Source of the DNA: Nitrospirota bacterium
GTDB taxonomy: Bacteria > Nitrospirota > Thermodesulfovibrionia > Thermodesulfovibrionales > JdFR-88
Length of the DNA: 64,000 bases
Reading direction: 5' to 3'
NCBI GenBank assembly: GCA_021789555.1
Contig: JAJYJK010000005.1
Coordinates: 1-64,000, forward strand
Made by a program: the position numbers and the translations under genes
Part shown: positions 28,545 to 31,861 of the stretch, piece after piece
Layout: every line of letters starts with the position of its first letter
How positions within the stretch are numbered: the stretch's first letter is position 1
Notes under the pieces: generated by a model
Seen by the model: only the letters and a program-made list of their open reading frames with translations
Databases searched by the model: none
Told to the model about the DNA's origin: nothing

Positions 28545-28664
28545 CCCCTCTCCCAACCCTACCTTTGCCCCAAAAAGCCTTTGGCTTTTCGCATAAAACC
28601 CTTGCGCGAACCTGTCTTTTGTGAAACCCTCTCCCTATTAAGGGAGAGGGTTGGGAGAGGGTGA
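28545..28664. repeat. Dispersed palindromic repeat (family A), composite copy
   Basis: ccctctcccaaccc ... aaccctctccctattaagggagagggttgggagaggg between convergent pth and MgtE-like gene. Confidence 0.65.
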
Positions 28665-28677
28665 ACTTAATTTTCAT

Positions 28678-29958
28678 TCAAACGAACTTGTGTTTGAGAT
28701 TCATGATGTCGCGGTAGGGGACGACGCCCAGAATTCTCTCATGCTCATCTGTAATGGGGATTGCGCGGAAGCTGTAGCGCGAGAACATCTCGGATGCCTC
28801 GAGGAGGGTGTTTTCGGGGTTTAGGCTGATGACGTTTGCCGTCATTATCTCATCGAGCTTCTCATCCGGTTTTGCCTTCAGGACCTCTTTCAGGTCGACG
28901 ACGCCCAGCAGGGTGTCTTTTTCGCCGATGACGTAGAGGTACATGATCTCGTCCATGTCCCTTGCGATCTCGCGGAACTGGAGCATGACCTCGCCGGCCT
29001 TCATGCCGGGCGGCAGTTTGATGAAATGCGAGGTCGAGAAGTTTATGATTTTTTCCTCATGTCTTTCCAGCATGTACTCTATCTTCTGGACGTTCTCCCT
29101 GTCCATGAGTTTCATTATCTCATCGGCCTCGGCCGCCGGCAGTATGGCGAGGATATCGGCCGCCTGGGCCGGGGTCATGTCGTTTATGAGTTCGACGGCC
29201 CTTTCCTTCTTTATGGACGAGATGAGTTCCCTCTGGACCCTGGGCTCGATCTCCTCCAGGGTGTCCGAGGCGTGCTCGGTCTCGAGTTCATTGAAGATGG
29301 CGAGCCGCTGCTCCTTTGTAAGCTCCTCCAGGATGTCCGCCATGTCTACGGGGTGTATCTCCGGGAGTTTTTCCTTTAGGACCTTCAGCTTGACATTGCC
29401 CCTGAACCTGCCTATGTCCTCCGGCAGCGGCTGGACGTAGGACCAGGAGAGGGTCTCTTTTTTCAGCAGCGCGGTGTCGCCGAAGAGCAGTTTCATGACG
29501 GGTTTCAGATGGAGTCTCTTGAAGAGGGCGTACCGGCTGAAATCCACGTCCGTCACGTAGAGGATGTGGTTCCGGAGGACGAGCTTTACATCGTAGACAA
29601 CGTCCACCTCGTTGTCATCCATATCTAGGACTTTCTTGTCGAGGATATGGTCGTCCAGGAGCACCTGGGAGGGGTCCGGTTCGCCTTCGTACCGCTCCAT
29701 GGATTCGAGGGTGACGACGATGCGGCGCGGGGTGACCTCCGCCACCTTCGCCCAGGGTATGAGGAGGGGCTTTTCGCCAAAAGGCCTCTTGACGATGAAA
29801 TGGGTCACCACGGGCAGCTTTTCGTCCCCCCGGATGGCGACGTCCTTCAGCTTTCCTATCTTCTTGCCGTCCCGGTTAAAGACCTTCGAGCCGATGATGT
29901 CGGAGAGGAAATATACGGCCTCGACCAGTTCCTGTTTTTTCTCCGTGATGGTGTTCAT
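28678..29958 (-). CDS. Soluble PRC-barrel + MgtE_N + CBS-pair protein (no MgtE membrane domain)
   Basis: GSKVFNRDGKKIGKLKDVAIRG (PRC-like), HPVDMADILEEL...LPAAEADEIMKLM (MgtE_N), two CBS units; no TM segments, ends NLKHKFV. Confidence 0.85.
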   Translation of the reverse strand: MNTITEKKQELVEAVYFLSDIIGSKVFNRDGKKIGKLKDVAIRGDEKLPVVTHFIVKRPFGEKPLLIPWAKVAEVTPRRIVVTLESMERYEGEPDPSQVLLDDHILDKKVLDMDDNEVDVVYDVKLVLRNHILYVTDVDFSRYALFKRLHLKPVMKLLFGDTALLKKETLSWSYVQPLPEDIGRFRGNVKLKVLKEKLPEIHPVDMADILEELTKEQRLAIFNELETEHASDTLEEIEPRVQRELISSIKKERAVELINDMTPAQAADILAILPAAEADEIMKLMDRENVQKIEYMLERHEEKIINFSTSHFIKLPPGMKAGEVMLQFREIARDMDEIMYLYVIGEKDTLLGVVDLKEVLKAKPDEKLDEIMTANVISLNPENTLLEASEMFSRYSFRAIPITDEHERILGVVPYRDIMNLKHKFV

Positions 29959-29971
29959 GCGTTTTCTCCGA

Positions 29972-30148
29972 TCACTTAAGCAGGGTCACGAATTTATAAA
30001 ACGACAGGCCGATGAGACAGATAAGATAGAGCCTCAGGGCGAAGAGCGCCAGTTTTACCCCACCGGACATCTCTATGCCGGGGGTCCTGTATTTATCGTT
30101 TATCTCGCGGACCTTCGCGTAGCTGTTGCTGAAGATGTTCCTGAGCAT
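29972..30148 (-). CDS. Small single-TM protein (58 aa)
   Basis: MLRNIFSNSYAKVREINDKYRTPGIEMSGGVKLALFALRLYLICLIGLSFYKFVTLLK*, between MgtE-like and NRAMP genes; absent from ORF track. Confidence 0.6.
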   Translation of the reverse strand: MLRNIFSNSYAKVREINDKYRTPGIEMSGGVKLALFALRLYLICLIGLSFYKFVTLLK

Positions 30149-30166
30149 TTTTGGCCCCCTTTAATA

Positions 30167-31438
30167 TTATTTAAACATATTCGGAAACAGCGTACTAATG
30201 CCGTACATCGTCGAGAGCAAAATGATTACGGCGACGATGCCTATATTAACGATGTTCTGCCAGCGCGTATTGACGCTCTCGCCCATCGTTTTTTTGTCGT
30301 TCAAAAGCAGTATCAGAAACACCAGGGCCGCGGGAAGCAGGGTGGTGGCGATAACCTGGACGAAGAGGGTGATCAACACAAGCGGCGCCCGGGGTATCAG
30401 CACGACGGTGCCGGCAAGCATCAGATCGAAGAAATAATAGGCATAGAACCAGGGGGCCTCCTTGACCTTGTTGTTCAGGGAATGCGCCCATCCGAAGATC
30501 TCCCCGAAGGCCCAGGAACTCGCCAGCGAGATGCAGATCGCCCCCAGCAGTCCGGCGTCAAAAAGGCCGATTGCTATCAATGTGCCTATTACCCGGCTTG
30601 TGGGCATGATGCTGGTGGCCGCCACCGCGGCGTCATTTACGGGCTGGCCGTAGAGCAGCTTGCCGGTGACGATTATCAGGACCATCGCCACGACAACCGT
30701 GAAGACCGAGCCGATGGCGGTGTCGATTTTTCCAAATGCGATGTCCTTCTCATGCAATCCCTTGTCCACGACCGAGCTCTGCTGGAAAAAAAGCATCCAG
30801 GGCGCTATTGTAGTGCCGATATTTGCCATCAGGAGGAAAAAGAGGTCGTTCGTGAACCCGCCGGGCGGGAAATGCGGCACCACACTGTTATAGAGGATAT
30901 CCTTGACAGCAGGATGGACCATGAAAGCCGCCGGGATATATATGAGGTTGATCCCAACGAACAGAAGCGCGATCTTCTCCCATGTCCAGTAGCGGCCGCT
31001 GAATATCATGGCCCCCATGACGAGCCATACGACCGCGATCGTCAGGAGCCGGGGGACGTGGAAGATGCTCATGGCCGCAGTCATCCCTATGAACTCGGTT
31101 ATCATGGTGAGCCAGTCGGTCAGCACAAGATCCAGCAGCGAGAACCAGCCCCAGAACCGGCCGAACGCGGAGAAAATCGCCTCGGCGTGGCCGCGCTTCG
31201 TGACCGCGCCCAGGCGGACCGTCATCTCCTGGACGTAATAGGCCACCGGGCCGAGAAGGACAAGAAACCAAAGGAGGTGCAGCCCGTATTTGGCGCCGGT
31301 TGCCGTGTAGGTGGTTATGCCGCCCGCGTCGTTGTCGGCGACCATCACGATTATGCCGGGGCCGGCCGCAAGCAGAAAGAGCCGCACGGCTTTCAGCCAC
31401 CTGCGATATATGTAATAAGTCCTTGTGAAGATATTCAT
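30167..31438 (-). CDS. NRAMP (SLC11)-family divalent metal transporter, non-canonical site motifs
   Basis: ~11 TM; GPGIIVMVADNDAGGITTYTATGAKYG (TM1), ANIGTTIAPWMLFFQQSSVVDKG (TM6); start MNIFTRTYYI at 31438. Confidence 0.9.
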   Translation of the reverse strand: MNIFTRTYYIYRRWLKAVRLFLLAAGPGIIVMVADNDAGGITTYTATGAKYGLHLLWFLVLLGPVAYYVQEMTVRLGAVTKRGHAEAIFSAFGRFWGWFSLLDLVLTDWLTMITEFIGMTAAMSIFHVPRLLTIAVVWLVMGAMIFSGRYWTWEKIALLFVGINLIYIPAAFMVHPAVKDILYNSVVPHFPPGGFTNDLFFLLMANIGTTIAPWMLFFQQSSVVDKGLHEKDIAFGKIDTAIGSVFTVVVAMVLIIVTGKLLYGQPVNDAAVAATSIMPTSRVIGTLIAIGLFDAGLLGAICISLASSWAFGEIFGWAHSLNNKVKEAPWFYAYYFFDLMLAGTVVLIPRAPLVLITLFVQVIATTLLPAALVFLILLLNDKKTMGESVNTRWQNIVNIGIVAVIILLSTMYGISTLFPNMFK

Positions 31439-31546
31439 TACACGTCGCTCCACTTCAAGAATTGCTTGATAACGCAAGGTAAAAAAGGCCGGCAAAAAAA
31501 CGGGTTTTAGCGGGGATGGGGACTGCCGTTCAGGAGACGGAGATTA

Positions 31547-31648
31547 TCAGGGGAGATTCAGTACAGAGGTGAGGAATGGACTCCGCCCCATCGTTTTTTT
31601 GCCTTTTTGCCCGCTACTATGACTACTTGGGCCGCCATCCATCCACAT
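31547..31648 (-). CDS. Putative 33-aa leader ORF upstream of NRAMP gene
   Basis: GAAGGAGGTGATG then MWMDGGPSSHSSGQKGKKTMGRSPFLTSVLNLP*; strong SD. Confidence 0.35.
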   Translation of the reverse strand: MWMDGGPSSHSSGQKGKKTMGRSPFLTSVLNLP

Positions 31649-31689
31649 CACCTCCTTCAAACACAGAAATAAAGCGCGGGTTCCGAAAA

Positions 31690-31719
31690 AGTATAAAAAC
31701 AGGGAAACGAGTATGTCAA
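31690..31719 (-). promoter_or_regulatory. Sigma-70 promoter for NRAMP/MgtE-like operon
   Basis: TTGACA-N18-TATACT on the minus strand; ~250 nt upstream of the NRAMP start. Confidence 0.7.
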
Positions 31720-31734
31720 TAAAAAAATAGCGGA

Positions 31735-31816: not shown

Positions 31817-31861
31817 TGAAACCCTCTCCCTTAAGTTAGAGGGTTTCAATGGGAGAGGGTG
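31817..31861. repeat. Family A palindromic repeat overlapping the RND permease 3' end
   Basis: gaaaccctctcccttaagttagagggtttcaatgggagagggtg; overlaps stop at 31836. Confidence 0.6.

Follow-up and report, generated by a model that had tools for sequence, protein, structure and literature searches.

The window analysed here is a 64,000-nucleotide stretch of contig JAJYJK010000005.1 of a Nitrospirota bacterium. On its minus strand, between positions 28678 and 31438, it carries an operon of three genes which encode, in this order, a transporter related to the NRAMP (SLC11) family, a membrane protein of 58 amino acids, and a soluble regulator-like protein with PRC, MgtE_N and CBS domains. The transporter almost certainly belongs to the NRAMP-related Mg2+ transporters (NRMT), and it lies in a distinct branch, here called type II and new to this work, that crosses phyla and has a gene order of its own. 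The pairing of such a transporter with an MgtE-like protein is not new, nor is the idea of feedback control, since Shin et al. (2014; PMC4072509) report a homologue of the MgtE cytosolic domain as neighbour of most NrmT genes and already speculate upon feedback control; the central proposal of an earlier note on this DNA, an Mg2+-gated NRAMP system with its sensor working in trans, therefore restates their hypothesis. What is new beyond that pairing is the type II branch, the small membrane protein as a conserved third component, the changes in the regulator, and the conserved leader. The chances seem to us evenly balanced that NRMT would import Mg2+ together with a detachable transmembrane (TM) subunit coupling it to the cytosolic CBS regulator. 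The fuller picture is put forward tentatively, namely a modular uptake complex in which a separate TM-helix subunit, fused in a related branch, would link NRMT to a CBS regulator with a non-MgtE signal, under an undescribed operon-specific leader RNA or peptide.

A transporter branch with its own gene order

The transporter gene (30167-31438, 423 amino acids) is read from the ATG at 31438 and not from the TTG at 31495, because homology in the relatives starts at the ATG; the extra length of the open reading frame (ORF) from the TTG is unconserved in them. Pfam Nramp (PF01566) matches residues 60-410 of the long ORF at 2.4e-70, and the closest solved relative is EleNRMT of Eggerthella lenta (7qia, E 6.5e-63), with MntH proteins at about 1e-12. 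According to the EleNRMT paper (PMC8806188), that protein is set apart from Mn/Fe carriers by Asp55, Gly58, Thr224, Ala227 and a Trp in place of a TM6 histidine. The window transporter is identical to it at D55, G58, T224, A227 and W229, the last four of which correspond in MntH to N, A, M (A in one mutant chain) and H. Both histidines of the TM6 proton pathway are replaced, by W and Q in the window transporter and by W and N in EleNRMT. The earlier note had read DNDAGG in TM1 and TIAPW in TM6 in place of the canonical DPGN and MPH motifs; both variants are present, and the match to EleNRMT with its identical binding-site residues supports the assignment to an NRMT type. In a tree of 33 proteins the window transporter groups with EleNRMT (support 89/97) and MntH stays outside, a grouping made less sure by the long branches. 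EleNRMT, as the nearest solved relative, occupies the next branch, whereas the window protein belongs to a separate one that has a small TM partner; the available parts of the EleNRMT paper are silent on partners.

With the transporter alignment as query, type II NRMT was found in 12 of 396 Nitrospirota genomes at 795 bits or more, the next score being 332 bits. The type II order is NRMT, small gene and MgtE-like gene, separated in the window by gaps of 18 and 13 bases respectively. The same three genes stand in the same order in all 10 loci retrieved using the MgtE-like protein as query (from Nitrospirae, Desulfobacteraceae, another deltaproteobacterium and Magnetococcales), and because of this identity of order the arrangement is not a matter of chance. 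Type I, of which 20 loci were read, has the MgtE-like gene directly before NRMT, the two mostly overlapping by 4 bases, and lacks the small protein. Two genomes from the phylum of locus L007 (L094 and L095) have the order NRMT, MgtE-like gene and a short form of the small protein. Type III (L036, L037 and L038, three genomes) has an NRMT of 552-553 amino acids with no MgtE-like gene nearby, and in the tree it is sister to type II and IIb (100/100). The layout of three ORFs on one strand is as first described, and the co-occurrence that had been proposed as a check took the form of a strict genomic link between MgtE-like and NRAMP-type genes, in the 10 loci as in the 20 of type I. The pairs of Shin et al. 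likewise place an NRAMP-related Mg2+ transporter beside an MgtE cytosolic-domain gene without the pore (PMC4072509); the window differs in having NRMT first, the MgtE-like gene last and the small TM gene between them, a gene unmentioned in the main text of that paper as searched, its supplementary figures excepted.

It is very improbable that the genes are merely linked and not functionally coupled, either as chance neighbours or as a mobile metal-resistance cassette. Their patchy spread would fit such an explanation (12 of 396 Nitrospirota genomes, and for the small protein 4 of 247 genomes of a second phylum), as would an NRMT identity of about 69% across phyla, which suggests horizontal spread, but the small gene adjoins NRMT in 12 of 12 genomes, is under purifying selection and was kept in L094 and L095 despite the rearranged order, and the MgtE-like gene adjoins NRMT in 20 of 20 type I loci in the opposite order.

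The small membrane protein and the CBS protein

The product of the small gene (29972-30148) is modelled by AlphaFold2 (AF2) with an N-terminal helix at residues 2-19 and a TM helix at 29-57 (predicted local distance difference test score, pLDDT, 79.5), and the linker reads P-x-[IV]-E-M-S in the alignment. Between the window and its closest relative, L001, the nonsynonymous rate (dN) is 0.07 and the synonymous rate (dS) 0.72; since dN lies well below dS and the sequence is conserved across phyla, the ORF is a real gene, and it is under purifying selection. No family or relative was found in Pfam, NCBIfam or PDB. A profile of the small protein matches exactly the 12 type II genomes among the 396 of Nitrospirota and none other. 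The form in L094 and L095 is only 36-41 amino acids long and retains the TM half, and the C-terminal tail of the type III transporters resembles that same half (hhalign 79.7%, P 1.5e-5), one of the three tails scoring above all 3000 shuffles. That the tail is a fused copy of the small protein is suggestive, not proven; the tree lends the idea weight, since the sister position of type III to type II and IIb puts the free and the fused-like forms into one clade.

The strict co-occurrence, the survival of the gene through a change of gene order and the putative fusion all strengthen the earlier idea that the small TM protein is an accessory subunit, and we regard its membership in the transporter system as somewhat favoured. 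Newly seen here as a conserved protein that travels with one branch of importers, it is likely to be a detached subunit of them. MgtS and KdpF are small single-TM regulators of transporters, and the likeness lies in a very small membrane protein that is encoded with, or acts on, a transporter, although no sequence relation of the window protein was found in Pfam, NCBIfam or PDB. A candidate explanation built on a look-alike pattern, in which the small protein would be a left-over plug helix and TM1 of MgtE, was dropped after a profile search of PDB gave no MgtE match. Type II is a strict three-gene unit, and the absence, the rearrangement and a fusion or fusion-like form of the small subunit are already seen in nature.

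The third gene (28678-29958) encodes 426 amino acids with Pfam matches to MgtE_N (6e-22), CBS (4.6e-18) and PRC (4.3e-11). The PRC domain covers residues 15-83, followed by a second PRC-like barrel at about 104-171, MgtE_N at 201-298 and two CBS domains at about 301-421. The second barrel is visible in the AF2 model only and not in Pfam, and the domain arrangement in that model is unreliable because of a mean pLDDT of 71.5 and a low predicted template modelling score. The top Foldseek match of the model is the cytosolic domain of MgtE (2yvy, E 2e-19), and the MgtE pore domain PF01769 is absent by Pfam. The description of a soluble PRC-MgtE_N-CBS protein without pore stands, corrected to two PRC-like barrels.

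When this protein is set beside the MgtE cytosolic domain (2yvy, 2zy9; PMC5882242, PMC5529423), MgtE_N and CBS align over about 230 residues, the ligands of Mg6 and Mg7 are kept and the residues of a putative ATP site are similar; the window protein differs in being separate, in having neither pore nor plug helix, in the replacement of Mg4 and Mg5 ligands and in its two added PRC-like barrels. TtMgtE closes on Mg2+ bound at D91/D247 (Mg4), D226/D250 (Mg5), D95 (Mg6) and E59 (Mg7), and E258 and D259 of its plug helix are the ligands of Mg2 and Mg3 (PMC5882242). The equivalents in the window are A264 and D417 for Mg4, S396 and N420 for Mg5, and, as retained sites, D268 for D95 and D232 for E59. 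The homology stops at CBS2, at TtMgtE residue 251, with five residues left, and the plug helix with its Mg2 and Mg3 ligands is absent. The ATP residues Y170, R187, D188 and F227 of TtMgtE correspond to Y340, K357, E358 and F397, two identical and two conservatively changed. The 10 type I proteins all keep D91, D95 and D247, nine of them keep D250, and Asn stands at D226; the equivalents of D95, E59 and D247 are retained in 13 type II proteins with single exceptions.

The window regulator, compared with the pairs described in 2014, therefore lacks ligands of Mg4 and Mg5 of which type I has preserved all or some. The claim of an Mg2+ sensor acting in trans by the mechanism of MgtE is weakened by these replacements and by the absent plug helix, and what remains of it is the Mg6 and Mg7 ligands with a set of residues like that of the ATP site. 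Because these ligands and the helix are lost, sensing in the manner of MgtE is not to be assumed for type II, and an MgtE-type gate in trans appears less likely there than in type I. For the type II regulator, a response to a nucleotide, with Mg2+ playing a residual part, seems at least as likely. Regulation of the transporter by the CBS protein, of whichever kind, is in our estimate moderately probable. Type I partners, in which D91, D95, D247 and in most cases D250 are preserved, contrast clearly with those of type II, where the Mg4 and Mg5 sites are lost, and type II offers a natural test system for the role of the MgtE-like gene, which has been an open question since 2014.

Probable substrate and proposed coupling

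A single Nramp homologue is encoded in the host genome, which measures 2.85 Mb and is 98.8% complete, and genome searches found no CorA, no MgtE pore domain and no MgtA, the best match to the MgtA model being below the cut-off and scoring higher as other P-type ATPase subfamilies. Because these three are missing, Mg2+ is favoured by elimination, and it is likely to be the main substrate; this genome may have no Mg2+ importer of any known family besides this transporter. Activity of NRMT proteins on Mg2+ has been reported (PMC4072509 and PMC8806188). CorA occurs in 1 of the 12 type II genomes. Mutual exclusion of CorA and NRMT across Nitrospirota was considered and given up, as CorA is found in 69 of 158 genomes with NRMT and in 137 of 238 without it (Fisher p 0.008, kinship ignored), which is a mild negative link only, and the argument is kept just for the type II genomes.

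The mechanism that we propose builds on the family assignment, the linkage of the genes, their conservation and the loss of particular Mg2+ ligands, all of which are established; the ion carried, the existence of a complex, the sense in which import is regulated and the signal are inferred. The NRMT protein would import Mg2+, probably independently of protons and with much of the hydration shell kept, like EleNRMT. The small protein would pack on the transporter as an extra, detachable TM helix with its charged N-terminal helix toward the cytosol. The PRC-PRC-MgtE_N-CBS-CBS protein would dock on the complex of NRMT and small protein, and would turn import down or adjust it in response to a signal from the cytosol, for which an adenine nucleotide acting with Mg2+ at the two MgtE-like sites still present is the likeliest candidate. 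The conserved 5' leader would set the expression of the operon.

Several observations weigh against this proposal. A defect in Mn uptake was rescued by the NrmT of A. capsulatum, whose gene lies beside an MgtE-like one, and the partner gave no improvement (main text of PMC4072509). All 13 type II proteins have Ala at D91, with Ser or Asn at D226 and Asn, Gly or Lys at D250, and the plug helix is missing. A GDT1-type cation/proton antiporter and a CDF exporter stand beside the type II operon in L068 (178-744 and 5951-6601), as does a CDF exporter in L100 (11631-12524); these neighbours would suggest other metals. The absence of known Mg2+ importer families leaves room for another, unrecognised one. 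Finally, two of the three type III tails did not score above all shuffles in the fusion test.

The rescue of Mn uptake, the GDT1 and CDF genes that adjoin the operon in certain relatives and the lost Mg4 and Mg5 ligands could also be taken to mean that the transporter imports mainly Mn2+, or divalent metals broadly, and that Mn2+ or the energy state is what the CBS protein responds to, as has been suggested for the A. capsulatum pair. We consider this rather unlikely: the binding site equals that of EleNRMT and has no soft methionine ligand such as Mn/Fe carriers use, no further known family of Mg2+ importers is present in the host genome, and the NrmTs of C. acetobutylicum rescued Mg2+ defects and not Mn2+ defects (main text of PMC4072509).

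The same paper bears on a further possibility, in which the CBS and small proteins stabilise, insert or assemble the transporter and sense nothing, the small protein being an assembly factor and the PRC barrels a dock on the membrane surface. Clostridium NrmTs work without an MgtE-like partner, NrmT proteins were functional in B. subtilis without one, and the partner did not improve the transporter of A. capsulatum (PMC4072509, main text); the loss of most MgtE gating sites would point the same way. We nevertheless find this role unlikely, as the CBS pair retains the ATP-site-like set and the D95 and E59 equivalents across all types, and its co-inheritance in types I and II alike, with all domains in place, speaks for a role beyond that of a chaperone. 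Import of Mg2+ under the influence of the CBS protein is the reading that we retain.

The leader and the surroundings of the operon

A sigma-70-like promoter, TTGACA-18-TATACT, was called by a scan on the minus strand at 31690-31719 from a consensus match at 11 of 12 positions, and a similar sequence is also present before the leader in the closest relatives. The leader element lies directly downstream (31655-31537, defined by 13 aligned copies and a covariance model) and carries a strong Shine-Dalgarno sequence. Its arms GGAGGUG..AUGGAY and GUCCAU..CACCUC can pair, with GGCGGCCCAAGUAGUCAU in the loop, and a possible leader ORF, MDGGPSSHSSGQKGKKTMGRSPFLTSVLNLP, lies inside the element at 31547-31642, with the strong Shine-Dalgarno AAGGAGGTGAT; this possible ORF starts MDGGPSSH. 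Among 316 Nitrospirota genomes the covariance model finds the leader in 8, each of them a type II genome, and every match is in the type II operon; no genome without that operon was found to have it. A one-mismatch match in genome G156, which is without type II NRMT, was set aside as a chance match inside an ORF. Further copies lie at L086 1501+, L097 8161+, L098 8169+, L099 348+, L101 9360-, L090 1501+, L093 1013- and 390-, L069 3608- and 2421-, L068 900+ and L072 1790+.

The arms are paired in 86.7% of alignment cells as against 37-55% when they are slid. Covariation among the 13 aligned copies is not significant, staying within shuffles, and the folding energies of single sequences are mostly no better than those of shuffles. 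The leader matches no Rfam family even at E 10. Some of the pairs of Shin et al. have an upstream M-box, whereas none was found at the gathering threshold in the window or in 27 further loci, nor at E 10 in the leader, and an M-box or other Rfam RNA before the operon was rejected. The leader had at first been read as a conserved peptide, and later copies were seen to vary in ORF length and codon positions with the arms still pairable. Because ORF length is not conserved between relatives, an RNA function and a peptide function are indistinguishable; a structured RNA is plausible, if unproven, and the element may alternatively encode a leader peptide. The element is in either case a possible new form of metal-responsive control.

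In relatives the leader either adjoins NRMT on its upstream side or is separated from it by a gene for an outer-membrane barrel, which is of the OprB type in L068 (1499-2902) and L072 (2016-3446) and of the Phenol_MetA_deg type in L069 (2456-3367); in L004 an unnamed gene stands between the two. The position of these barrel genes would fit a passage of the same ion through the outer membrane. In genome G686, one contig (L093, 390-1013) has two leader copies, one before an HMA_2 gene and one before the first part of an OprB-like gene; a second contig (L119, 4504-8055) runs from the end of an OprB-like gene through NRMT and the small gene to the MgtE-like gene. This is likely a longer operon split by a contig break, in the order leader, HMA_2, leader, OprB-like porin, NRMT, small gene and MgtE-like gene. 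An MgtC-family gene is located close to this operon on the opposite strand.

Between the NRMT operon and pth, the sister species (L001, 7682-7876; L097, 11864-14618) has a cobalamin riboswitch and a CbiM-type cobalt uptake cassette, both missing from the window. Copies of GGGAGAGGGTTTCA in REP-like palindromes are found at window positions 28622-28635 and 31817-31830, one on each side of the cassette, and the window holds 7 near-matches to GGGAGAGGGTTTCA where 0.85 are expected.

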